Positions 1 to 28,395 of a stretch of 28,395 nt of DNA are shown piece by piece (the stretch's first letter is position 1; every line of letters begins with the position of its first letter). A model generated the notes under the pieces. It was not told the origin of the DNA. It saw only the letters and a list, made by a program, of their open reading frames with translations, and did no database searches. This DNA is from a virus. A program made the position numbers and the translations under genes. The stretch spans positions 1 through 28,395 of IMG/VR virus record IMGVR_UViG_3300004279_000008; one strand, written 5' to 3'.

Positions 1-146
1 CTAGCCGGTACCGAAAAAGTTTGTGTAAATTCTGTAAATACCTTTGCTATATCTTTTACGTTTTGGATTGTTTGTGTAAGTGATACACTTTCATCTTTGA
101 ACAAATCTACCCTTTGGCCACCTATATATAATTGTAGTATACGCAT
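1..146 (-). CDS. Large tail protein, N-terminal part (runs off left edge)
   Basis: Starts at the ATG at 146-144, sharing one base with the TAA of the preceding gene (TAATG). The first 48 codons stay open to the window edge, with two bases left over. The peptide begins MRILQLYIGGQRVDLF and ends near TFSVPA. In related flavobacterial phage tail proteins, as I recall them, this N-terminus is followed within a few residues by an NKIFKHYYN-like stretch. The right-edge fragment begins with KIFKHYYN, so the two pieces are most simply one gene split by the ends of a circular genome. The role is inferred to be tail tip or baseplate, because the gene sits between other tail genes and the tape measure. 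Partial only because the window ends here. Confidence 0.75.
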   Translation of the reverse strand, partial: MRILQLYIGGQRVDLFKDESVSLTQTIQNVKDIAKVFTEFTQTFSVPA

Positions 147-1310: not shown

Positions 1311-1838
1311 TTATTTTTTAAAGTTTATTAATGCGTATTCTATGTCTAATGTAAAGGCATCAATTAATTCTTGGGGTACTTCTTTTAAAACCCTATCAAA
1401 TGGCTTAGAAAAAAATTCGGTTGCCTTTATACCTTTGTGATATATGCTTCTTGCAATTATAAGGCTCATACTTTCATAAGACATAAATTTGCCATCAGGT
1501 GTTCGCCATTGAAACCTTTTTTTATTTAACCAACTTTCGATGCCCTCAGTTAAACCACCCTTTGGATAGTTGCCACTTCCATATTGAAATTGCGATAATG
1601 AAGCTTTTGTTTCTGGGTATGTAGATGTTTTACCCTTAACCCCTTTATCCACAAAAATTCCATAGTCTTGCATGTAAAACTTAACCACAAATTCATTGGT
1701 CTTTTGTTCTATTTCAGCATGTAAAGTATTGTAAAGATCACCATTGCTTTTTCTTTTGTCAACCAAATTCTTTTTGGCTTGGTCAACAATATCATCAGCA
1801 AGACCCCTTATAGCTTGTTCTAAATTGATAAGTTTCAT
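1311..1838 (-). CDS. HK97 gp10-like neck/tail completion protein
   Basis: A 175-residue protein starting at the ATG at 1838, which overlaps the upstream stop as TAATG. A TTG two codons further upstream is a less likely start. The sequence has the organisation of HK97 gp10-like minor tail proteins: an N-terminal helix (AIRGLADDIVDQAKKNL), a central beta region with DYGIFVDKGVKG, then a helix ending in FFSKPFDRVLKE. That family helps join the head-tail connector to the tail tube. Its position directly after the putative tail terminator gene supports this reading. The family call is from pattern recognition, not a search. Confidence 0.65.
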   Translation of the reverse strand: MKLINLEQAIRGLADDIVDQAKKNLVDKRKSNGDLYNTLHAEIEQKTNEFVVKFYMQDYGIFVDKGVKGKTSTYPETKASLSQFQYGSGNYPKGGLTEGIESWLNKKRFQWRTPDGKFMSYESMSLIIARSIYHKGIKATEFFSKPFDRVLKEVPQELIDAFTLDIEYALINFKK

Positions 1839-2308
1839 TAGCAAATATATATATCATTGTAAATTTTAATATTCATAGTCGCAGACCAACCGGCAAGTTC
1901 ATTTTCAAATCTATCGTGAAATGGGGTTAAAGATGGGCTACCATCTAATTGGTACATGTCTTGATGCAATTGACCCATTCTTAATCTTTGGGTAAGTAAG
2001 TTTAAAACAGATAGCTGCGTATTTAAAATGTCTTGCTCATTGTCCATACCGGTAAACCTATTGGTGGTTACATCTTTGGTTTGGTCTACAATGTCACATG
2101 CTAAAATGCTTATGTTAAAATTAAGCACTTGTTCGTCAACGGTAACGCTATTTACAATTATATGCGCCAAAGGAAAAATGTCTTGTTTGTTTAAGTTCAC
2201 TTTGCTAATGTCACCTATTGAAACAGTGTTAACATGTGGGCTTGAAAATAATTGCTCCCTGATTACTTGGGTTAATTGATAATACCCTCTTATACCTTGT
2301 TGGCTCAT
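1838..2308 (-). CDS. Putative tail completion/terminator protein (156 aa)
   Basis: ATG at 2308 overlaps the stop of the -1 frame of the tail chaperone gene as ATGA. The 156-residue protein begins MSQQGIRGYYQLTQVIREQL and contains GDISKVNLNKQDIFPLAHI, DNEQDILNTQLSVLN and FENELAGWSATMNI. The alpha/beta pattern with a C-terminal strand block fits small tail terminator or tail completion proteins that cap the tail tube. I recognise the same layout in flavobacterial siphoviruses, where it lies beside gp10-like and chaperone genes, as here. No catalytic motif is expected. Assignment to tail completion is by synteny and pattern. Confidence 0.6.
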   Translation of the reverse strand: MSQQGIRGYYQLTQVIREQLFSSPHVNTVSIGDISKVNLNKQDIFPLAHIIVNSVTVDEQVLNFNISILACDIVDQTKDVTTNRFTGMDNEQDILNTQLSVLNLLTQRLRMGQLHQDMYQLDGSPSLTPFHDRFENELAGWSATMNIKIYNDIYIC

Positions 2309-2562
2309 TTGAAATTCTTTTTAATTCTTTTTGATTCTAATTCAGCTTTTTCTTTCATAAAGGATAGCATCATAAAACATTTATGTACGTTTAGTTTAGT
2401 GATATCTTCAAATCGTCTAATGTCCCCCTGAGCGAGTCCAAAAATTGATTGGTACCACCCATATTTTGCATTGAAGTTAGATTGTGCATCAAGGCTTGGT
2501 GTTCCTTTTTGTCCAAATAATTCATCATAGCTTTCGACAAGTCTAGCCCTAAATTCCACAAA
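2305..2562 (-). CDS. Tail assembly chaperone, -1 frame extension (C-terminal part)
   Basis: This 85-codon reading frame lies -1 relative to the 216-aa gene and opens in the ten-T run. If entered by a -1 slip there, it gives a fusion of about 245 residues: 160 from the upstream frame plus 85. The frame has a GTG at 2559 that could act as an independent start, but nothing suggests a separate initiation region. Its peptide (AKYGWYQSIFGLAQGDIRRF, then NVHKCFMMLSFMKEKAE) looks like genuine protein and resembles small proteins at this place in flavobacterial phages. Its stop overlaps the next ATG (ATGA). The arrangement parallels the lambda gpG/gpGT tail chaperones. Confidence 0.65.
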   Translation of the reverse strand, partial: FVEFRARLVESYDELFGQKGTPSLDAQSNFNAKYGWYQSIFGLAQGDIRRFEDITKLNVHKCFMMLSFMKEKAELESKRIKKNFK

Positions 2563-3041
2563 AAAAAAATTGAAGATAAAACCGCACTCATTGGCATATC
2601 CAATAGCAAATCATCACTTCCAATTTTGTATTCATTAATTGTGTATTTGTCTTTCACCCTCAAAACTACTGGCCTATATAAAACATTCATTGCTTTTTCC
2701 ATATTGTCCCAATCACCTATATAAGTATCAAGGTCTATATATTCGCCTAAACTAATTTCATCTAGTTGCGGTATGAAACCATATTCAGTTTTACCTAATT
2801 TAAAGTTAGTTACCAATTCAGGTTTTTGGTCAAATACCTTAGTTATTTTTTCAACTATTATTTCACAATCTGATGCCTTTAAAAGCATTACATCTTTAAG
2901 TTCCATCTGGCAAAAGATTTCAATGATCTTTGCTTGTAGATGTTTTTCGTTATCAGCATTTTCTTGAATTTTTAAAAATTCTTTGTATTGCCTTAAAGTG
3001 ATTTCATTTAAACCACTTGGTATCTTAACACTTAACTTCAT
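2391..3041 (-). CDS. Tail assembly chaperone, zero-frame product (gpG-like, 216 aa)
   Basis: ATG at 3041 follows a CGTTATATA element three bases upstream. The 216-residue protein starts MKLSVKIPSGLNEITLRQYK and contains FGFIP-like and GEYIDLDTYIGDWDNMEKAM segments, then LYRPVV, and ends LDDLKISLN. It is mostly helical and acidic. I recognise this as a conserved protein of flavobacterial siphoviruses, typically near tail genes. A second, overlapping frame after a T10 run points to the gpG/gpGT chaperone arrangement, in which both products help load tail tube subunits around the tape measure. The chaperone function is inferred from the frameshift geometry and tail context. The gene begins a new transcription unit after a terminator. 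Confidence 0.6.
   Translation of the reverse strand: MKLSVKIPSGLNEITLRQYKEFLKIQENADNEKHLQAKIIEIFCQMELKDVMLLKASDCEIIVEKITKVFDQKPELVTNFKLGKTEYGFIPQLDEISLGEYIDLDTYIGDWDNMEKAMNVLYRPVVLRVKDKYTINEYKIGSDDLLLDMPMSAVLSSIFFLWNLGLDLSKAMMNYLDKKEHQALMHNLTSMQNMGGTNQFLDSLRGTLDDLKISLN
2560..2569 (-). promoter_or_regulatory. Probable -1 ribosomal frameshift site (T10 run)
   Basis: Ten consecutive T residues on the coding strand lie inside the chaperone gene. In the zero frame they are read ATT-TTT-TTT-TTG. The run contains U UUU UUU, a canonical X XXY YYZ slippery heptamer, and the -1 frame continues for 85 codons past it. I could see no obvious stable hairpin or pseudoknot immediately downstream. Confidence 0.55.
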
Positions 3042-3891: not shown

Positions 3892-5100
3892 TTATGAAAT
3901 ATAGTACTTGCCTTTGTTCGGGTTTTGTAGTTGGTATGATATACTATAACGTACCGCATCAAGCAAATGATTGTGAAGATCTTGTGGGGTTTTTGACTTT
4001 TTTTCCAACCAAGAATAGTTGTTAAGTTCCTTAATTAAGTTTATGCTATTTTCTTCAATGATTAAATCATAGTCTTGTAATAATGCGATACCATAGGTTA
4101 TTGACCCTTGGCCTTTAATTGATTTTACCATATTGCACCCTTTGGCTTTAAGTTCGTGCAAAAGTCTGGGTTCGGCACTATCACCAACCACAAGGCCATC
4201 ATTAGCGTGTTTAAGGTTAAGTTCGGCAATTTGTGAAGTAGTTAGGCCTTTAAGGTAAAAGCATTCTTTTAAATAGATTATTTTGTTTGTTGTGTCTATG
4301 TTCGTTTCAACAAGTGTATTTTCGTCATTTGCAAAACCATAATCTTGACCCCAAACAGATACACCAACTTTTTTAAATTCACCTATTGACCAGTTTTCAA
4401 ATATGACCCCCTCGGCTTTTGCAAGCCAACCCCCAAGCATTTGATGTTTGTATTTGTCCGGCCTACGTTTCTTTATGTTTTCAATTTGGTCTAAATAGCT
4501 TTGCGATAGGTTTTCAAGATTGTCAAGGTATGTTGTATGTATATAGGTGGTATTTCCTTTTGTTTCGTTTAGGCCACCCATTACACCCTTGCTTTGAAAA
4601 AAGCGGTCATATATCCAATGTTCTTTTGTGACTGGGTTTAAAATAAGTATTATCCTATTCTTTTGTTTTAAGTTCCTTACACTTAAATCGATTTTGTCGA
4701 AGATGTTTTCATCATTAAGTTCTTCGGCTTCTTCCATTACCCAAGTACTTACATTTGTTAAACTTTTTAAATTCGCGCTCTGGTCACCGCTTGAAGTCCT
4801 TATACCACGAAATATAATCTTGCTACCTGATAGCTTATTTCTTATTTCATCTTTGGTGACGTAGAAATGATCTTGCAGTTTAAGCGTGTCAATTTTGTCT
4901 AAAAATTCAGGTATGATTGATATGTGCGCCGAAGTCAAAGTGAACCTTGTGAATAGGATTGTATGCCCGGCTTCATAAGTTAGCAATAACAATAATAGGT
5001 TTATAGAATACGATTTACCAGACCCACGCCCACCAGTTACAATATAATACCTTGCATCTGATGTTTGGATAGGTTCATACTTTGGGTCAACTTCTATCAC
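3892..5100 (-). CDS. terL: Terminase large subunit
   Basis: A 402-residue packaging motor ATPase and nuclease of the PBSX-like Terminase_3 type. Walker A is GGRGSGKS (residues 23-30), Walker B with the catalytic acidic pair is VMEEAEE (121-127), and an ILNP coupling-motif-like segment is near 153. The C-terminal RNase H-like nuclease shows acidic residues in GQDYGFAND (D253), GDSAEP (D307) and LLDAVRY (D381). Full length for the family. The ATG at 5100 overlaps the TerS stop as ATGA, so the two are translationally coupled. It is separated from the portal gene by the whole tail module, unlike the usual TerL-portal order. Confidence 0.97.
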   Translation of the reverse strand: MIEVDPKYEPIQTSDARYYIVTGGRGSGKSYSINLLLLLLTYEAGHTILFTRFTLTSAHISIIPEFLDKIDTLKLQDHFYVTKDEIRNKLSGSKIIFRGIRTSSGDQSANLKSLTNVSTWVMEEAEELNDENIFDKIDLSVRNLKQKNRIILILNPVTKEHWIYDRFFQSKGVMGGLNETKGNTTYIHTTYLDNLENLSQSYLDQIENIKKRRPDKYKHQMLGGWLAKAEGVIFENWSIGEFKKVGVSVWGQDYGFANDENTLVETNIDTTNKIIYLKECFYLKGLTTSQIAELNLKHANDGLVVGDSAEPRLLHELKAKGCNMVKSIKGQGSITYGIALLQDYDLIIEENSINLIKELNNYSWLEKKSKTPQDLHNHLLDAVRYSISYQLQNPNKGKYYIS

Positions 5101-9872: not shown

Positions 9873-10709
9873 TCATTTTAATGGGTCATATAAATTATTA
9901 ACTATTGTGGGCAAACCTTTTTCATTTACTTCAAAGCTGAATGTGTCAAAAGCATACCCACGACTTCGACCACATTTAACTGATGTGTAACCTTTGTTCA
10001 CATTATTTTCTTCTAAAAGTATTGTAGTTTCACTTTTTTTTTCAAGTGCCGAACCTAGGTGGCCGGTTCCAAGTTTTGCGCTTCCAAAGTTTTGGTGAAT
10101 TACATTTATGATATGACAATTATTTTGTTGTGAAATTCGCATTAAGGCACTTACTAAACTATTGCAAGATTTTATATCGTTAACATCATTACACATATCG
10201 GCCACACCATCTAAGATGACCAATGATGGTTCTTTTATGTTTTCCCTTAAATAGTATTCAAGAAATTTTAATCTATCAACATAGCTAATTGTACGCAATG
10301 CAAAAGTATTGTATTTGTCTTTTGGAATTTTTGAGTCCATTTGTAAAGGCCTTTGGAAAACCCGGCTTGCATGATAATTTGATTGCTCGGTATCAATATG
10401 AATTAAACTTCCATTACCCCTATGCCCTTTTATCTGGCCACCATAAATATTTGAACCGCTTAAATACGCGCTTGCTAAAAGGCTGCAAAAGAAGCTTTTA
10501 CGGGTTTTTGGGGGCGCGGTAATTGTACTGATATTGCCATACGTGCAAATTCCGATTGGTACTATTGTATCACCTTTATCAGAATGTATTACTTTTTCAC
10601 CATAGCTTATTGCCGTAGGTGGGTAGTCTATTTTTTTTTCAATGTCAATGAAACAAGTATCTGCGATAAATTCCATTAGCATGTTTTCTTCTGTTTGTTT
10701 TTCTGTCAT
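9873..10709 (-). CDS. RecA-like ATPase (AAA_25/RepA-type helicase-like)
   Basis: A 278-residue RecA-fold ATPase. The P-loop region TAPPKTRKSFF (64-74) keeps the Lys-Ser pair but lacks the usual GxxxxGK glycines. A conserved DTEQ (106-109) supplies the catalytic glutamate, Walker B is LVILDG (163-168), and a motif III-like HQN is at 205-207. These match the AAA_25/RepA helicase-like class used by phages and plasmids in replication or recombination. There is no primase domain. It is preceded by a terminator-like hairpin after SSB and followed by the sigma factor. Confidence 0.75.
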   Translation of the reverse strand: MTEKQTEENMLMEFIADTCFIDIEKKIDYPPTAISYGEKVIHSDKGDTIVPIGICTYGNISTITAPPKTRKSFFCSLLASAYLSGSNIYGGQIKGHRGNGSLIHIDTEQSNYHASRVFQRPLQMDSKIPKDKYNTFALRTISYVDRLKFLEYYLRENIKEPSLVILDGVADMCNDVNDIKSCNSLVSALMRISQQNNCHIINVIHQNFGSAKLGTGHLGSALEKKSETTILLEENNVNKGYTSVKCGRSRGYAFDTFSFEVNEKGLPTIVNNLYDPLK

Positions 10710-18133: not shown

Positions 18134-20098
18134 TTATTTTACGCCCGGATAATGTCCTTGATTTGGCATGTTGACCGGTGCCGTTTCTGATTGTTTTGTT
18201 CCCCTTGGTGATTTTATATAACTATCCGGTATGCTTCTTGTTTTTTTATAGTCACTTAAATCTTCAGATGGTTCGGTATTCTTTTTAAGGCGATATAAGA
18301 CACGAACCCATTTATGGCGACAATATACCCCACCTTTGAATTTAAACAAGTCATAGGGCTTCCCGTTGTGTCCTAGGCTTTCGTTTACACCATCGCGCGA
18401 AGCTGCATCGATACCCTCTAATCTATATACAATGCCAGACTTAGATAATCGCATCATGTTTTCACAAAATGGCCTTGATTTATTATTGTCTTTCATTTGC
18501 TTTGTTGACCCAACAACGTACTTGTATCTAATCTTATAATTTTTACTATCTAAATAACTAAACCCACTTGGCTTTGATGTTATTTCATCAGCAAATTTTT
18601 TAAATAAAGACTTTTTTTCCTTAATACATAAAGCTGCCCAATCTTCATCGCTTATGTCTATGTCTGTTTCAAGTTCGTCAACTAATTCATATTCATCAGA
18701 TATTGTTTCACCTTTTAAATTGTCTAATATTTGTTCACCTAAATCATCTGATAAAAATTCTGAATGTGTTTCACAAGGCATATACCAAACATCATCACCA
18801 TCTTTATGTTCGTGGTAACCATCGCACCCTTGCTCTTTTGCTTTTGCTTTTGCTTCTTCTATTGTCTTATAAGCTTCTTTGCCATCAATTTGTTTTAAAT
18901 TAACCTTTGACATTTCAACACCGGTTTCTTCTTCAATGGTTTCTTTGTCTTGTAATGTTTGGTCTACTTCAGTAAATTCTAAGGGTTGTAAGGTCGTAAA
19001 GTATAGGTTTAAGCTAATATCGTTGTATGCTAGTATCTTATCAAAGTTATCTATTAAAAGTTCCTGAAATGGCCTTATAATCGTGTTATCCATTAAAATA
19101 CTGGCAACTTCAATTTCATCGGCATTATTTCCAAAACCTGAACCATTATTTATACCTAGTAATTTTGGGCTTACAATTCTATGGCTTAACATCACTTTGG
19201 TGCTGCATTCTTCCGATAAAAATTGATACTGGTTATGAGCATCACTTAATTGCACCGGTGTTATTTCGGCTTGGCTTTCTTTATTGTCGTTAAAAGCTAC
19301 AATCATACGGCCACTATTTGAAGACCCTTGGAATTTAGCCGCAATTCTACTTTCAATTAATTGGCGTTCTTGTTGGTTCGGAATTCCATTATTGAAATTT
19401 ATTAAAAGACCGGGTGCAAGGCCATTAATAACATTCGATAAATGGTAATTTGATACTTCTTCTTCAAGTTCGGCATACTGAAGCCCTCCTTGATAATCTA
19501 CCGGTGAATAGTAGTAAAAACCACTTTTGTATGGTTTAATGTATAATATTTCAATATCTTCATTAGACATACCCCAAGCCGGTATTCTTAAAGGTTCGTC
19601 TGAATTTGTTAAATTTGCCCAATCATTAAAATAATAATATGCCGGTATATTTCCATCTTCATCACATTTTGCAGCGCGTAAAGTTTCGATAGGCATGTGT
19701 TCTATTTCGGCAATTTTACTTCTATCTTTTGAGTAGATAACTTGTATTGCACATTGACCCATAAGTTTAAGATCGTAGCATAATTTCCTTACAATATCTT
19801 TTTTAAATAAAGATACCATTTGGGCATATTCGTTTGGTCTTCGGTTGCTATCGGTAGCATTTAAACCTTTACCATAAATTTGTTGGCTTACACCATTTAT
19901 ACAAGCCGAATTTGTAGGGCTTCCATTAAAACGGTCTATCAAAAACTGGAAATAATCATTATCAGCCCCATAGGAAATCCACGATTCGCCGTTTACTTCT
20001 TTTACTTCAGGGCTAGTATATGTACTTAATTGTAAAAAACTTGCTTCTTGCTTTTTGTTTTGCTTTACAAATTGACCCTTGTTATTTCTTTTTCTCAT
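18134..20098 (-). CDS. Portal protein with C-terminal extension
   Basis: 654 residues. Residues about 30-385 form the portal: WISYGADNDYFQFLIDRFNG, a helical stem region, an RIVSPKLLGINNGSGFGN-like segment near 307-324 typical of PBSX/HK97-like portals, and a crown helix RPFQELLIDNFDKIL. Portals of this type usually end near residue 450. The extension holds a Cys/His motif (YHEHKDGDDVWYMPCETH, 428-445), an acidic linker, then SRPFCENMMRLSKSGIVYRL (541-560) and GGVYCRHKWVRV (589-600). This may be a head-morphogenesis (MuF-like) or DNA-associated domain. The 130-aa gene stop overlaps its start (ATGA-type). Confidence 0.75.
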   Translation of the reverse strand: MRKRNNKGQFVKQNKKQEASFLQLSTYTSPEVKEVNGESWISYGADNDYFQFLIDRFNGSPTNSACINGVSQQIYGKGLNATDSNRRPNEYAQMVSLFKKDIVRKLCYDLKLMGQCAIQVIYSKDRSKIAEIEHMPIETLRAAKCDEDGNIPAYYYFNDWANLTNSDEPLRIPAWGMSNEDIEILYIKPYKSGFYYYSPVDYQGGLQYAELEEEVSNYHLSNVINGLAPGLLINFNNGIPNQQERQLIESRIAAKFQGSSNSGRMIVAFNDNKESQAEITPVQLSDAHNQYQFLSEECSTKVMLSHRIVSPKLLGINNGSGFGNNADEIEVASILMDNTIIRPFQELLIDNFDKILAYNDISLNLYFTTLQPLEFTEVDQTLQDKETIEEETGVEMSKVNLKQIDGKEAYKTIEEAKAKAKEQGCDGYHEHKDGDDVWYMPCETHSEFLSDDLGEQILDNLKGETISDEYELVDELETDIDISDEDWAALCIKEKKSLFKKFADEITSKPSGFSYLDSKNYKIRYKYVVGSTKQMKDNNKSRPFCENMMRLSKSGIVYRLEGIDAASRDGVNESLGHNGKPYDLFKFKGGVYCRHKWVRVLYRLKKNTEPSEDLSDYKKTRSIPDSYIKSPRGTKQSETAPVNMPNQGHYPGVK

Positions 20099-22188: not shown

Positions 22189-22749
22189 TTATTGATTTAA
22201 TTTGTTTATTACTCTATCTAGTGTTGTGTTAAATTTTCCTTTACCAAATTGCACTTGTTGTTTTTGTGTTTTGGTTTCTGGGTTATGTCTTAATGGTTTT
22301 CTTGAAGCACTCATTTCTTCTTTTTTCTTGTTATCAGAATAAAGTTTTTTAAGTTCTTCAATTTCTTCTTTTACTTCTTCAATTACTGGTGCAATAACTT
22401 CAACAACCGCTTCAATGATTGCTTCAATTTCAGTTACTACTTCTTCAGGTACTTCAGTTACCACTTCTTCAAGATCTTCAGTTTCTTCTTTGGCCGGTAC
22501 TTCATCAGATACTTCACGAACATCTGCAATTAAGCCCTCAGACTCAACTACTAATAAACGCCCATCTTCGAGTAAATATTCACCTACGGGCATTGCGATT
22601 TTTTCTTCATCACTTACAATGAAAATTTCACTATCTTTTTCAAATGATTCGGCGGTCACGATTGTGCCGTTTTCCAATTTCATTTCTTCAAGCTTCACTT
22701 CCATTTTTAGAAGCGTTCTTATTTGATTTAACATTTTTGTTTTTTCCAT
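22189..22749 (-). CDS. Putative scaffold/capsid-associated protein (186 aa)
   Basis: 186 residues with a highly acidic middle (about 85-140) made of Glu/Val-rich repeats (EEVVTEVPEEVVTEIEAIIE) predicted as long helix, then a basic C-terminus with SASRKPLRHNPETK. The N-terminal half is a small beta domain (NGTIVTAESFEKDSEIF, GEYLLEDGRLLVVES). Placement directly before the major capsid gene and the acidic helical design fit a scaffold protein. A CGTTATATA element lies six bases before the ATG. No active-site motif. Confidence 0.65.
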   Translation of the reverse strand: MEKTKMLNQIRTLLKMEVKLEEMKLENGTIVTAESFEKDSEIFIVSDEEKIAMPVGEYLLEDGRLLVVESEGLIADVREVSDEVPAKEETEDLEEVVTEVPEEVVTEIEAIIEAVVEVIAPVIEEVKEEIEELKKLYSDNKKKEEMSASRKPLRHNPETKTQKQQVQFGKGKFNTTLDRVINKLNQ

Positions 22750-22788: not shown

Positions 22789-22950
22789 TTAAACTGTTCT
22801 TGTAATTACGCCTATGCCTTGGGCTTGCATAGAGCCATCGCAGCACTTACTTGAATAAGTTGCGGTGTCCCAACATAAACAACCCCTTTGACCGCCGGTA
22901 GGCGATGCATGGCTAGGTATAAAGGTTTTATTTTTATTGTTTCTATTCAT
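22789..22950 (-). CDS. Cys-rich microprotein (53 aa)
   Basis: ATG at 22950 overlaps the previous stop (TAATG), giving 53 residues ending IGVITRTV. The peptide contains GGQRGCLCWDTATYSSKCCD and the tail GSMQAQGIG. Four cysteines in CxC and CC pairs plus the KCCDG-x-(L/M)QAQGIG tail form a pattern I remember from many Bacteroidota phages, always among head genes. It may be a metal-binding minor virion protein or capsid-stabilising peptide. No function is established. Confidence 0.65.
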   Translation of the reverse strand: MNRNNKNKTFIPSHASPTGGQRGCLCWDTATYSSKCCDGSMQAQGIGVITRTV

Positions 22951-23396
22951 TAAGACCAATCCCTAAATTCCATTTCATTTTTCTTGTATTGTTCATCACT
23001 TTCACGCATATATTCCAATGCTTCCATATGTCTATCATATGATGGGTAAACATCATCTGCTTCTAAACCTAGTTCTTCGGCTTTTGCTTTAATTTCATTT
23101 AGTTTTTCAATATCACCTGAAACATCATCAAACCTAAATACTGCGCTTCCATTGTGTTGGTATTCATCGTTTAGTTCCATCCAAGCTTGGCGATATGCTT
23201 CAAATTTTTCATCGTGCCATTCGTAAGCTAAATAAGACAATAAACCGCTTTGGTCTTCAATAGTATCAATATCATAGTCTAAATTGTCAATCAATCCTAA
23301 TGCTACTTTATGTGCTTTAAGGTTTACTTTTTGCGATTTAAGGTCAACTTTATTTGTTGCCAGTTTGTCGTATACTCTATCTAATCTACTTTTCAT
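22950..23396 (-). CDS. Head-region protein, paralogue of its neighbour (148 aa)
   Basis: I choose the ATG at 23396 (MKSRLDRVYDKLATNKVDLK). An upstream start at 23450 would overlap the preceding gene with unrelated basic sequence. The 148 residues are charged and helical. The start (LDRVYDKL) and a later segment (IKAKAEELGLEADDVYPSYD) match positions of the 152-aa neighbour (IERVYSKL; VKADEIGVDPSVIDGYT), so the two are likely an old tandem duplication. Both lie between protease and scaffold genes, suggesting an internal head or scaffolding role. Confidence 0.6.
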   Translation of the reverse strand: MKSRLDRVYDKLATNKVDLKSQKVNLKAHKVALGLIDNLDYDIDTIEDQSGLLSYLAYEWHDEKFEAYRQAWMELNDEYQHNGSAVFRFDDVSGDIEKLNEIKAKAEELGLEADDVYPSYDRHMEALEYMRESDEQYKKNEMEFRDWS

Positions 23397-23436
23397 TTTA
23401 TATTTGGTTTTATTTATACTGTATAAGATTTGTTTT

Positions 23437-23895
23437 TTACCACTGCGCATCTACTATTGTTTTTAATCTATCAGCGTTATAGTGTACTTCTTCAAAATAA
23501 GCATCTTCGATACCTTTTATTGCAAAAAAATCTATTTTAGCTAATTCTTCTAGTTTTGTATATCCGTCTATAACGCTAGGATCTACTCCTATTTCATCGG
23601 CTTTTACTCTTACATTTTCTAATACTTCGTCAACTTGTTCGGTAGCATTGTACCCTAGACCTAAAAAAGCACTTGCCATAGAAACTTCGGTATTTGCTTC
23701 GTCTGCTATTTCTTCTATTCGCTTGCCTAAGTCTCTTAATTTAGCGTTGTAGTCTTCGCCATCTTTCATTAAAGGTTCTATTAAATTTATAGCTGCGTTT
23801 ATTTCGTCTACTAAACTTAATTTAATTTTATGGTTTTTAAAGTTGTGTTTCTTTTGTGGTAGTTTAGAGTATACCCTTTCAATGTTAGTTTTCAT
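23437..23895 (-). CDS. Head-region protein, paralogue of its neighbour (152 aa)
   Basis: ATG at 23895 is 11 bases inside the end of the protease gene. 152 residues, starting MKTNIERVYSKLPQKKHNFK, then helical with GEDYNAKLRDLGKRIEEIAD and VRVKADEIGVDPSVIDGYTK. It shares its N-terminal block and the KA(D/E)E(I/L)G block with the downstream 148-aa protein. Acidic and helix-rich, no membrane segment. A structural or assembly role in the head is inferred from its place after the protease. Confidence 0.6.
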   Translation of the reverse strand: MKTNIERVYSKLPQKKHNFKNHKIKLSLVDEINAAINLIEPLMKDGEDYNAKLRDLGKRIEEIADEANTEVSMASAFLGLGYNATEQVDEVLENVRVKADEIGVDPSVIDGYTKLEELAKIDFFAIKGIEDAYFEEVHYNADRLKTIVDAQW

Positions 23896-24475
23896 TTAAT
23901 ATATCTTTTATTTGGTTTAATAATTGTCCCGACATTTTTTCTTTTTCTTTGTCGTTTGGTGACTCTATTTTATCGGCGAAAAATCCTTCAATACTGAAGC
24001 CACGGCATTTCTTAGTTAAAATATATTCTTGCCAAACTTTTTCGTTATTCACCTTAACGCTGCCGACCCACGAACCCACCGGTACGTCTAGGCCATACAA
24101 TGCGGTTTTATCTTTTTCTTTATCTTCTACAATCCAACTTTCAACTAAGGTTAACCCATCAAGGGGCTTCGCATGTTCAAGTGTCGAATTACTTTGGTTC
24201 CCATTTTGAAGAAATAATTGTGATGCTTTATTTATTGTTTCTTTGGAAAAAAATATATAATATTCACCATCTTCACCGGTTCTATAAATTGGCTTATCAG
24301 GTATTAATAAAGCCCCCATAAGTATACGTTTTTCTTTGTCTACTTCAGCAAGTTTTATTTCTTGATTTTTCAAAGCCACAAAGTCACTTTCGATGGCCGG
24401 TGATTCCACAATTGATATTGCTTCGATTCCGGCTTCAAAATCTTCTTCATCTAAAATAAGTTCTATGATCTTCAT
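23885..24475 (-). CDS. XkdF-like prohead serine protease
   Basis: 196 residues resembling the phage XkdF-type putative serine protease. The segments GEDGEYYIFFSKETINKASQ, STLEHAKPLDGLTLVESWIV (His105 region with a later Ser) and YGLDVPVGSWVGSVKVN, then CRGFSIEGFF, follow the prohead protease layout with His and Ser catalytic candidates. It would cleave scaffold and capsid N-termini during head maturation. It starts three bases after a CGTTATATA element and leads the head operon, overlapping the 152-aa gene by 11 bases. Confidence 0.75.
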   Translation of the reverse strand: MKIIELILDEEDFEAGIEAISIVESPAIESDFVALKNQEIKLAEVDKEKRILMGALLIPDKPIYRTGEDGEYYIFFSKETINKASQLFLQNGNQSNSTLEHAKPLDGLTLVESWIVEDKEKDKTALYGLDVPVGSWVGSVKVNNEKVWQEYILTKKCRGFSIEGFFADKIESPNDKEKEKMSGQLLNQIKDILNEN

Positions 24476-24509: not shown

Positions 24510-26261
24510 TTACCCAATACTTGCCCCCTCGATTATATTGCGTTCAAGTTCTTGGCTTGTGGTAATGTCATTGCTCACAACATAACTTCTTGATGGTCTT
24601 TGGCTTTGTCCACCTATTGCATCTGCTAATTGGTTTGTATCACTTTGACCAACCACATTAAAGGCCGGGGGTATGGCCGCACCACCACCACCGCTTGAAG
24701 TTGGCACGCTTCCAGTATTACCTTTACCGCTTGGGTCTATTGATTTAATCGCTGCAATGTTTTTTAAGGCAACCGCACCGGCAAGACCGGCTTGAATAAA
24801 TGGGTAGGCCGGAAATGCAACGGTAATAGGTGACTTATTAGCCGTTGCAAAAGCATTCATAGTTCCTTGTATACCGCTTATAGTTGCACTTGCTATGGCC
24901 ATTGCTTTACCTACCTTTGAGTCTTTACCGGCTAATTGACCTACCATATCAAAAGTGGCTTGTGCATCGTTTAAACCTTGCTTCAAAAGTTCGTCACTTA
25001 GTGCTTTTTCTTCTTCTTTATTTTTCTTTTTTACATCTAGTATTGCATCTTCATAAAATTTTTCTATTGCAAGTTTTTCATCTTTTGTTGCTTTTAATAA
25101 AGTTAATTCGGCTAATGCTTCGGTTTGTTGTTGTTCAAGTTTTTCAATGTCGGTTAATTCTTTATGGTCATCTTGAATTTTCTTTATACTAGCAAGTCTA
25201 TCTATTTCATCTTGTTCGGCTTTTTCTGTATATGTTTTGTTTATTAAAGCTAGTTCACTTTGCCTTGCTTCTTCTAATTCGGTTGTGCTTATACCGTATT
25301 CTTTTGCCGCTTCAATTAGTGCATAATATTTTTCATATACTGCATTTTCTTCTTGTGTTTGTTTATCAAGTTTTGATTGGAAATATTCATCTTCTAGTTT
25401 TGCAATTTCTTCTATTGCGGTTGCTTCAGCAAGGGCGGCTTCATCTGCTAATTTCTTGGCCGCAGCGGCGGCAAAATCGGCGGCTTTTTGTTTTTCATCA
25501 TTGGCCTTTTTGTCCATTTGTAACAATGAAATTTTTAGGCTTTCAGCTTGGGTGTTTGCTTTGTTTATGTCTTCTTGTAATTTTAATTCTTTTTCATTTT
25601 CTTCTTTTATATTTCTTGCTGCAAAGGCTAGGGCGGTTGTGCTTCCAAGTCTTGTGCCAACCCAAAATGCTGCTTTTTCTAAAAATGTTACTTCCTTTCG
25701 ACTATTTTTTTCTAATTCTAATTGTGTTTGTAGATTTTTTAAAAGTTCAACATTCTTTTGTACCTGATAAAGCAATTCTTCTTTTATTGCATTTTTAATT
25801 CTTATAGTGCTTTTGCCTTGTAATTCAAGTATTGTTTGTTGGTTTTTTAATGAAGCAAGTTTTACATTACTTGCATCTACTGATTTATTTATTTCAATAG
25901 CTTGATTTTCTAAATCTTTATTTATAAACCCTAATGCTTCACCTATTTCGTCCCAATATTCAACAAGTAAACCAACGGCCACCACCGCCAAACCAATACC
26001 ACTTGATATCAAAGCGGTCTTCATAGCTTTACCACTTAGCTTTGCAGCTTTACCAACGGCAACCAATTTAGATGCAAGACCTCCGGTCGCTTTATCTATT
26101 TGCTTTACGGCTTCGCCACCGATTTGTGCCATACCAGAAATTTCATCTTTGGCCTTTTTAGTGGTTTTTTCGGTTTTCTTTATTTCATCATTTAACTTCC
26201 CAACATTTTTAACCGCTTGGTCTGTTTTTCCTATGATTTCAAATTCTGCTATTTCTGGCAT
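24510..26261 (-). CDS. Tape measure protein
   Basis: 583 residues with the typical layout: N-terminal EIIGKTDQAVKNVGKLNDEI with coiled-coil lysine/glutamate repeats, a hydrophobic segment (ALISSGIGLAVVAVGLLVEY, about 83-102), a long coiled-coil middle (about 130-440), and a C-terminal hydrophobic/Gly-rich part (GKAMAIASATISGIQGTMNA, FPAYPFIQAGLAGAVALKNI, TSSGGGGAAIPPAFN). It fixes tail length. At about 0.15 nm per residue it predicts a tail near 90 nm, which suggests a siphovirus. It overlaps the 47-aa gene by 13 bases and is preceded by the large tail protein. Confidence 0.85.
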   Translation of the reverse strand: MPEIAEFEIIGKTDQAVKNVGKLNDEIKKTEKTTKKAKDEISGMAQIGGEAVKQIDKATGGLASKLVAVGKAAKLSGKAMKTALISSGIGLAVVAVGLLVEYWDEIGEALGFINKDLENQAIEINKSVDASNVKLASLKNQQTILELQGKSTIRIKNAIKEELLYQVQKNVELLKNLQTQLELEKNSRKEVTFLEKAAFWVGTRLGSTTALAFAARNIKEENEKELKLQEDINKANTQAESLKISLLQMDKKANDEKQKAADFAAAAAKKLADEAALAEATAIEEIAKLEDEYFQSKLDKQTQEENAVYEKYYALIEAAKEYGISTTELEEARQSELALINKTYTEKAEQDEIDRLASIKKIQDDHKELTDIEKLEQQQTEALAELTLLKATKDEKLAIEKFYEDAILDVKKKNKEEEKALSDELLKQGLNDAQATFDMVGQLAGKDSKVGKAMAIASATISGIQGTMNAFATANKSPITVAFPAYPFIQAGLAGAVALKNIAAIKSIDPSGKGNTGSVPTSSGGGGAAIPPAFNVVGQSDTNQLADAIGGQSQRPSRSYVVSNDITTSQELERNIIEGASIG

Positions 26262-26392
26262 TTTAATTCTTTTTTAAGTTGTTGGTAACCCTCTTTAAAT
26301 GTTTCGGCTAGTTTATATTTTCCTTGGGCTATTCTTATGTTTTCGGTGTCACCATTGGCAATTTGCAATAAGTCTAAAATATCTTTTATCAT
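26249..26392 (-). CDS. Small helical protein between tail gene and tape measure (47 aa)
   Basis: ATG at 26392 overlaps the large tail protein stop as ATGA, and its own stop lies 13 bases inside the tape measure gene. The 47 residues begin MIKDILDLLQIANGDTENIR and continue as amphipathic helix (KYKLAETFKEGYQQLKKELK). Short, charged and helical. It may be a tail assembly factor. Start and overlap patterns match the rest of the operon, so it is real. Confidence 0.6.
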   Translation of the reverse strand: MIKDILDLLQIANGDTENIRIAQGKYKLAETFKEGYQQLKKELKCQK

Positions 26393-28395
26393 ATCAATGT
26401 GTTTAAAAGTTCAAATTCAGTTTTCCCGGTTGTTAAATCGGTAGTTAATGAATTAATTTTATATGTTTCTTGGTTTATTTCTATAAGGTTATTTAATTCA
26501 AGATCATAATATATTTTTAATGGCAAAATTGCTGAAACCTTAACCAATCTACGCCTATTGCTGAAAACGTCTTGTATATAAGTTTTATACTTTGTTTCAA
26601 AAATACTATCAATAAAGCAATTTGGGTTGCCGGGTTCACGTGCCAAATATTCGCTTATTTCATTTTGAAAATGTATTGATGTTTCACTTGTACCGCATTG
26701 TAACGCTAAAGTGTTTGATGGTATAAAGTAATTTGTAAGTGTCGCAATATCAGATGCAACTTCGGTATCAATAATTTTCATTGCGGTACCGTTATTTAAA
26801 ATGGGGTAAAATATTAAAGGGTCACCATAATAGCTTTCAAAATTATCATCTACAAAAAAACCATATTGAATAGTTGTATTTCCAATATTACTTGCCGAAG
26901 TGTCAAGGTCATATAGTCTTTCAAATTGCATGTGTTCAAATGGTGCAATTACATTGTAATCTTCGGTAGGTGCATCGTATGTTTGATTGTTTAAGGTATA
27001 AGAAGTTGACCCCCAACCAGAATTGAATATTTGCTCATATTGTTTTGCTAGTAAAGTTCCAAGCCCTTTGTATGCGAAATTTATTTCCTTAAAAGGCAAA
27101 GCAACTTCAACATCTGATTTTGTCACATCAATATATTCATCTATGACTATGGGTGCCTTTGTGTTTGCTGCGTAATAACTATCTAATGTTCTAACTACCA
27201 AAACCCCTAAATTGTCAACATAGGCCGTTAAATTAAATAACTTAAAAAGACCTGATAAAAAATCTATAATTTTCATCTTAGGTATTTGCTCGGTAATGTT
27301 AAATTCACGAACCGCGCTTGTACTAAATGTTGCCGAATTATTATATATTATACCCCCGGTATATTCAATTAAATCATCATCACGAAATTCATATTCTACT
27401 TTCCATTTTATGCCATTGGCTGCAAATTGCACTAATACATCACTTCTAATTTCAATTGCGTATGTACCATTATCAAAGGCGGTATCCCAAGGTATTTGTA
27501 CCGGTATAATTGTTTGCTGCCCACCGGCGGTATTTACCAAAACATTATATCCATTTGAACCGGTTACCCTTACATCGTATGGTATTGGTGGGGTTGTTGC
27601 AATCGGGGTTAAAACCAATGAAACCCTTGGTGACCTTAAAGAAAAATCAACACCCGTATTTTTATCAATTGTTAATTGGCCATTTTGAAAACTTGATAAA
27701 CTTGGCATGTCACCATAATCGCCAAATGGCGTGCCGGGGCTTGCACCCTCGTATGTTGTCCATTCAGCTTCACCAAAGCTAGTGCTTTCAACATTACCTT
27801 TTTTTCTATGTAACCACATAAACAAATCATCAAATTCTTGATTTGTAGCATCATTAAAAAAATCATCTGAAAAAACTATGTCTGTTGCATACCCATTTGC
27901 AATAGTGTATTTTTCTTCTATGGCCGTTATAATAGCTTGTAACCTTAAAGCGTATTTGAATTGATACCAATTAATGCCGTTAATATTAGTGCCGCTATGT
28001 ACCGCAACATTTCCATATTCATGCGCATTTGCATTACCATTGTAAATCATTCTATCGGTATGGGTAATCAAAGGCACGCAAATATTATCATTAGTGTTTG
28101 GTGCGTAGCCTTGTATGTAATTTGTTACATTGGCAAAATCGTAAACTTGTGAATATTCATTTAGTGTTGCTAAACTACTTAAAAGATCATCGCCTAAGAC
28201 ATCTTTTAAATCGACAACATTTCCGAAAAATGTTATATGATATGTATGTGCTACATTGTTTTTTAAACCTACTCTATTAAGCTTTATTTTACCCTCTTTA
28301 AAAGGGGTGTTGTTTAATTCTAAATAAGCAGCCTTTTTGGTTCTTGCATCAAAACCACCTTGAACACTTGCATTGTAATAATGTTTAAATATCTT
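26389..28395 (-). CDS. Large tail protein, main part (runs off right edge)
   Basis: The frame is open from the window edge (28395) to the TGA at 26391-26389, 668 residues. A GTG at 28077 is only an internal codon, not the start, because coding sequence continues without a stop to the edge. The first residues, KIFKHYYNASVQGGFDARTK, and later KEGKIKLNRVGLKNN continue the N-terminal fragment at positions 1-146. The full protein would be about 720 residues, mostly beta-rich with no membrane segment. It is probably a tail-tip or baseplate protein, located upstream of the tape measure. Partial only because the window ends. Confidence 0.75.
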   Translation of the reverse strand, partial: KIFKHYYNASVQGGFDARTKKAAYLELNNTPFKEGKIKLNRVGLKNNVAHTYHITFFGNVVDLKDVLGDDLLSSLATLNEYSQVYDFANVTNYIQGYAPNTNDNICVPLITHTDRMIYNGNANAHEYGNVAVHSGTNINGINWYQFKYALRLQAIITAIEEKYTIANGYATDIVFSDDFFNDATNQEFDDLFMWLHRKKGNVESTSFGEAEWTTYEGASPGTPFGDYGDMPSLSSFQNGQLTIDKNTGVDFSLRSPRVSLVLTPIATTPPIPYDVRVTGSNGYNVLVNTAGGQQTIIPVQIPWDTAFDNGTYAIEIRSDVLVQFAANGIKWKVEYEFRDDDLIEYTGGIIYNNSATFSTSAVREFNITEQIPKMKIIDFLSGLFKLFNLTAYVDNLGVLVVRTLDSYYAANTKAPIVIDEYIDVTKSDVEVALPFKEINFAYKGLGTLLAKQYEQIFNSGWGSTSYTLNNQTYDAPTEDYNVIAPFEHMQFERLYDLDTSASNIGNTTIQYGFFVDDNFESYYGDPLIFYPILNNGTAMKIIDTEVASDIATLTNYFIPSNTLALQCGTSETSIHFQNEISEYLAREPGNPNCFIDSIFETKYKTYIQDVFSNRRRLVKVSAILPLKIYYDLELNNLIEINQETYKINSLTTDLTTGKTEFELLNTLI

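Follow-up and report, generated by a model that had tools for sequence, protein, structure and literature searches.

A conserved run of nine or ten T's and two selected reading frames in a probable tail assembly chaperone gene of marine flavobacterial phages

A morphogenesis gene found in phages of marine flavobacteria contains two overlapping reading frames that are both under selection, a slip site of nine or ten T's at which the frames meet, and no other start that would account for the second frame. Comparison among the relatives makes this combination almost certain. The gene, probably that of a tail assembly chaperone, would specify two proteins that have their first ~160 residues, an N-terminal domain, in common. 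Reading straight through, as for most messages, would yield a 216-aa protein that carries one C-terminal tail. A fraction of expression would enter the -1 frame at the T10 site and yield a 245-aa protein, whose C-terminal domain is a different, helical one and finishes at the start codon of the following gene. The shift is proposed to occur mainly through RNA polymerase slipping on T9-T10, which would add one U or lose two, and ribosomal slippage on U_UUU_UUU may contribute. By analogy with lambda gpGT, the long form may bridge the tape measure and the tail tube protein. The chances are about even that the broadest reading holds, namely that RNA polymerase slippage on T9-T10, rather than ribosomal shifting, sets the proportion of short and long chaperone in a large and diverse group of phages, several of them with Bacteroidota hosts, and that the alternative C-termini are encoded in two frames of the same 50-250 nucleotides.

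The T run and the two frames

The window is the whole stretch of DNA that was analyzed, the 28,395 nucleotides of IMG/VR record IMGVR_UViG_3300004279_000008, and it represents a complete or almost complete phage genome. A minus-strand ORF of ~716 aa appears to span the record ends (window positions 3-146 and 26389-28395), and because it seems to cross the 28395/1 junction the genome is taken to be probably circular or permuted.

The two-frame gene lies on the minus strand, where its zero-frame ORF (2391..3041, with an ATG at 3041) encodes the 216-aa G-like product. The plus strand has ten A's at 2560-2569, which become U10 in the minus-strand mRNA. Across this slip site the zero frame reads SSI FF LWNLGLDL, with the codons ATT TTT TTT TTG that contain U_UUU_UUU. 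The -1 frame runs open from 2571 until it meets a stop at 2305-2307. Its extension past the run (2305..2559, minus strand) forms the T-like domain of 84 codons plus the stop, with 84 aa counted from the GTG after the run, and the joining of zero-frame residues 1-160 to 85 residues of the -1 frame gives the fusion of 245 aa. The zero frame continues for 55 codons beyond the run, creating a dual-coding overlap at 2391..2559 (minus strand) with selection on both frames. The -1 stop overlaps the start of the next gene as ATGA (2305..2308, minus strand), an arrangement conserved in relatives. The original prediction had placed ten T's within the 216-aa gene and described the open stretches of both frames past them and the size of the fusion, all of which agrees with the sequence. 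The frame transition that it proposed is supported by the conserved run, by both frames and by the downstream gene junction.

Searches of viral contigs return hundreds of relatives whichever frame is used as the query, and homologues of the zero-frame product cover residues 1-216 in hundreds of viral contigs. There are 399 loci in total, 392 of which are complete enough for comparison. These correspond to 277 unique sequences and form 100 clusters at 80% identity, 47 at 60% and 19 at 45%. The patterns of two of the searches did not include the run and relatives were confirmed from their protein sequences, which means that the presence of the run is not a product of the searching itself.

The run consists of nine T's at 202 of the 399 loci and of ten at the other 197, and none of the 399 has 7, 8, 11 or 12 T's at the site. 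Nine or ten T's are present in all of the ~410 related sequences, deeper relatives included, and still more distant relatives have nine. Each of 154 relatives that are 54-90% identical to the window has exactly ten, in two codon registers. Away from this site, the same strand of the related loci has T runs of at least nine at a density of 0.03 per kb, compared with 399 of 399 at the homologous site, and the run is therefore not due to chance. An avoidance of runs of at least 11 (ATA/ATC before TTT TTT TTT) is seen and is not significant given codon usage.

Runs of nine are built in the registers NTT TTT TTT TAY/TGG/TCG/TGC, TTT TTT TTT C and AGT TTT TTT TTG, and runs of ten in the registers NTT TTT TTT TTN and TTT TTT TTT T. 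Since the registers differ between relatives, the length of the run has been kept while its codons have changed. The zero-frame residue after the run varies (Tyr, Trp, Leu, Phe, Ser or Cys), and the codon after the run always begins with T where that T is needed to reach nine. Two cases depart from the usual arrangement. In sequence L223, three Phe codons already supply nine T's and the next codon, CTG, starts with C. In lineage L422, AGT precedes the run and TTG follows it, so that a T lost on the 5' side is made up on the 3' side, again giving nine.

Members of the group include the cultured Nonlabens phages P12024S and P12024L (the site was read in P12024S) and a prophage of the cultured Flagellimonas onchidii XY-359, in which the run is present. 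The group may extend beyond flavobacteria, to judge from a relative (L371) in a phage contig of 58% GC, where T9 is the sole A or T homopolymer of at least eight.

Long homopolymers are prone to errors, and the original prediction had allowed for a mistake in run length that would leave one true frame. An assembly or sequencing error of this kind can be dismissed almost completely, because ~410 contigs drawn from many metagenomes share a run of 9-10 T's at this site, the cultured phage P12024S of Nonlabens and the genome sequence of the cultured Flagellimonas strain have it too, and both frames are under selection.

Selection on both frames

The zero-frame and -1-frame products each align well across the family. 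In synonymous shuffles that keep the -1 protein, the zero frame gains a mean of 3.8 stops and is open in 1.4% of trials; in shuffles that keep the zero-frame protein, the -1 frame gains a mean of 4.3 stops and is open in 0.8%. These shuffles, with ~1% open, rule out passive openness of either frame.

Heterozygosity at the three codon positions was compared along the gene in 45 representatives. Before the run, the values are 0.26/0.16/0.51, as for ordinary zero-frame coding. Heterozygosity is 0 within the run and is low at all three positions in the overlap (0.14/0.20/0.22). After the zero-frame stop, the values change to 0.09/0.33/0.18, which is the pattern of -1-frame coding. In 84 of 100 clusters the -1 stop coincides with the ATG of the next gene (as ATGA in 61), and in none of the 100 does that ATG lie at the zero-frame stop. 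Stops also limit the zone of the shift, with -1 stops occurring down to 2 nt 5' of the run and zero-frame stops down to 47 nt 3' of it.

A separate gene of 84 aa, started at a GTG after the run, had been named in the original prediction as an alternative source of the -1 product. The window does have a GTG at 2559-2557, and in one third of clusters a GTG is the strongest candidate for a start. However, in 39 of the 100 clusters the open -1 stretch lacks ATG, GTG and TTG alike near the beginning of the domain, ATG is present in only 2 of the 100, and a separate gene would leave the conserved run without a reason to be kept. Separate initiation of the -1 ORF is thus excluded by the relatives that lack start codons, and the alternative is very improbable.

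The step at which the frame changes

Two known routes, slippage by RNA polymerase and slippage by the ribosome, can act on a T9-T10 site. The pattern of bases at the run moderately favors RNA polymerase slippage, alone or mainly, as the cause of the shift, and makes it somewhat more likely than ribosomal -1 shifting. The original prediction was of a programmed ribosomal shift; its frame change is upheld, and the mechanism may be transcriptional instead.

Conventional -1 ribosomal frameshifting would have two tRNA-Phe slip in tandem on U_UUU_UUU. The fused product and its role would be unchanged, with only the step of the frame change differing, and the case would resemble lambda G/GT, yet with another heptamer and without a stimulator. 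This explanation has a lesser but appreciable probability. The heptamer U_UUU_UUU, of the form X_XXY_YYZ, occurs in the correct register at every locus, and the presence of this 7-nt core in every member counts against the transcriptional reading. In E. coli, U_UUU_UUY belongs to the motifs that shift efficiently (PMC4066793), and the tail-chaperone cases in one review (PMC5009743) are ribosomal. Hydrophobic residues in both frames could set the NTT and TNN flanks, and such residues, where favored in both frames, could alone stretch the core to nine; this amino-acid link between core and run of nine is broken solely by lineage L422 and sequence L223. Run length alone was consequently rejected as proof of transcriptional slippage, as amino-acid constraint and the heptamer together could give nine.

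Several observations argue against the ribosomal route. No stimulatory RNA structure, which is a common but not obligatory feature, is found 5' or 3' of the run in 48 cluster representatives (mean z ~0 to +0.8), in agreement with the earlier remark that no downstream hairpin is clear. The run is never 7 or 8 T's long despite its several registers, and L422 restores at the 3' side the T lost 5'. In 54 clusters the second Phe codon could end in C with no change to either protein, and in all 54 it ends in T, so that U_UUU_UUC, which is expected of a ribosomal site without defining one, is never used where it would be free of cost. Tested against local codon use, the bias at this silent site has P = 1.7e-7 if the clusters are independent and 0.0018 over deep lineages; the test takes tRNAs to behave as in E. 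coli and the clusters to be partly independent. T9 is kept even in a phage of 58% GC whose TTC:TTT ratio is 28:8. U_UUU_UUC works efficiently as a ribosomal site in E. coli, as does U_UUU_UUU, and of the two tetramers U_UUC is better than U_UUU (PMC4066793). As C is never used even though it is silent and would serve the ribosome well, the homopolymer as such appears to be what is kept.

This preference for an unbroken run fits slippage by RNA polymerase. The E. coli enzyme slips on at least seven T's with a bias to poly(T), giving ~5 and 10% rescue on T7 and T8 (PMC6260861), and in many bacteria A/T runs are evidently selected against once they reach 9 nt, an effect attributed to transcriptional slippage (PMC1088944). 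An uninterrupted A/T run of at least nine with conserved length, the criterion used for transcriptional slippage, is present at 399 of 399 loci. A third-frame product, also expected from transcriptional slippage, has no evidence in its favor at these loci, where the third frame stops within ~3 codons. The gene resembles known transcriptional slippage genes (Thermus dnaX, IS elements and type III secretion genes) in having an unbroken run of 9-10 A/T in the coding sequence and products in two frames, and differs from them in being a phage tail-type gene.

Frameshifted tail genes are known and widespread in long-tailed phages, and the slip site of lambda G/GT is G_GGA_AAG. The parallel to lambda G/GT that had been drawn for this gene is supported by the comparative evidence as regards its two predicted products. 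In both, the N-terminal domain is common to two products, the longer form is reached via a -1 change, the second domain lies in the -1 frame, and the gene precedes that of the tape measure, with both on one strand. The present gene differs in its T9-T10 homopolymer, in its position after the terminase gene and several genes before the tape measure gene, and in the lack of any sequence similarity found here to a named chaperone family. It also differs from the lambda G/GT group in that the zero frame is dual-coding and stops 47-251 nt past the site across the family (median 166), whereas the average zero-frame stretch past the site is 26 nt for the SEA-PHAGES collection and 36 nt for that of Xu et al. 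(PMC10885494).

The closest described counterpart is gene 38/39 of Nonlabens phages P12024S and P12024L, a homologous gene after the terminase with T9 and a homologous -1 domain, in which the zero frame differs by stopping ~25 codons after the run. The deposited annotation of P12024S lists gene 39 as a separate ORF and does not mark a frameshift. P12024S_39 (L156 6528-6695, JQ823122.1) is the distal portion of P12024S_38's -1 extension.

The new elements are a T9-T10 site with its length conserved over a very diverse phage group and a long dual-coding overlap in a phage tail-type gene. RNA polymerase slippage in a tail gene, if true, would possibly be new as well; no report of transcriptional slippage in a tail assembly gene was found in the open-access papers searched, and an earlier one may exist among subscription papers. 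If RNA polymerase slippage is the cause, these phages would solve the same ratio problem at a different step of gene expression, using a homopolymer slip site whose conservation is very deep and whose length rule, 9 or 10, can be tested. The two-frame arrangement also accounts for two unannotated overlapping ORFs in such phages, which annotators can join. The cultured Flagellimonas strain with its prophage and the cultured Nonlabens phages offer direct test systems.

Identity of the protein and its genomic setting

The gene likely encodes a tail assembly chaperone of the lambda G/GT kind, judging from its two-product architecture together with weak profile and fold matches. Residues 5-170 of the zero-frame product match phrog_32199 (function not assigned), as do 47 of 47 aligned members, and 14 of the 47 match phrog_166 'tail protein' (best E 4e-5). 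The -1 domain is not matched by PHROG 32199; in a PHROG scan, its family matches only phrog_38404 (function not assigned), in 5 of 49 members. Sequence searches of Pfam, NCBIfam and the PDB with the zero-frame family, and of the PDB with the -1 family, gave nothing credible. The AlphaFold models are of moderate quality (pLDDT 78 and 73). Against viral models, Foldseek returns uncharacterised phage proteins together with a 191-aa protein of Flavobacterium phage 6H (E 1.6e-4), and two viral entries appear as marginal matches, one annotated tail assembly chaperone (E 0.063, probability 0.95) and one annotated tail assembly protein (E 0.022, probability 0.80). Against PDB folds, Foldseek finds no match for the zero-frame model and, on a second look, weak ones only for the -1 model.

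The models of both domains match the same seven viral proteins of 226-267 aa, which suggests that some relatives carry both domains in one frame. Two more searches for natural in-frame fusions found only frameshift versions among the loci inspected. Phage 6H has a gene of 191 aa, gp10, which is upstream of the tape measure gene and gives a weak profile match only (30% probability). In 6H (L306 9500-10930), unannotated open frames of ~105 and ~48 codons follow gp10, and this gene may also use a frame change, at a different site.

The terminase large subunit gene (3892..5100, minus strand) is upstream of the two-frame gene. The next gene downstream (1838..2308, minus strand; 156 aa) matches phrog_30964, with no function assigned, and probably encodes a tail terminator or neck protein. 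Its neighbor (1311..1844, minus strand; 177 aa) has a weak match to tail completion/Neck1 (phrog_5, E 0.0079). The tape measure gene (24510..26261, minus strand; phrog_24676, E 2.8e-13) is ~4.4 kb downstream on the same strand, across the circular junction, and is separated from the two-frame gene by the terminator-like gene, the neck-like gene and two larger genes. The gene is thus not directly between the major tail protein and tape measure genes and comes instead after the terminase gene. The same placement, after the terminase, beside neck-like genes and ~4.4 kb before the tape measure, is seen in the Flagellimonas prophage.

This placement in both genomes, along with the absence of matches in Pfam, NCBIfam and the PDB, would suit a protein of the neck or connector that also has a minor, frameshifted form, instead of a chaperone, a reading that is independent of the question of mechanism. 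Such an assignment is unlikely given the matches of 14 of the 47 members to phrog_166, the fold matches to annotated tail assembly entries and to the 6H protein, and the two-product architecture shared with G/GT. The identification as a tail assembly chaperone, made in the original prediction, therefore retains the support of the architecture, of the weak profile and fold matches and of the related flavobacterial phage gene, and lacks strong homology to a characterised chaperone. The gene is accordingly described as one that would work like G/GT and is not filed as a proven member, because it does not sit in the usual place beside the tape measure gene.

Further features were noted in the window. 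A portal-like ORF of 654 aa (18134-20098, minus strand) matches DUF3721 at residues 410-446 (E 1.9e-7), beyond its portal domain, leaving its C-terminal third without explanation. Two A9 runs (10034-10042 and 10631-10639, minus strand) fall in lysine codons of an ATPase/recombinase-like ORF (9873-10709) and are possible further slippage sites. Finally, consecutive parts of phrog_24921 are matched by two minus-strand ORFs, at 22189-22749 (202-338) and 23885-24475 (2-179 of 349), with two small genes (22950-23450 and 23437-23895) between them. A protease-scaffold gene in the window seems to have been split by an insertion; at the corresponding place in the Flagellimonas prophage (L225 15184-16263) there is one ORF of 359 aa.
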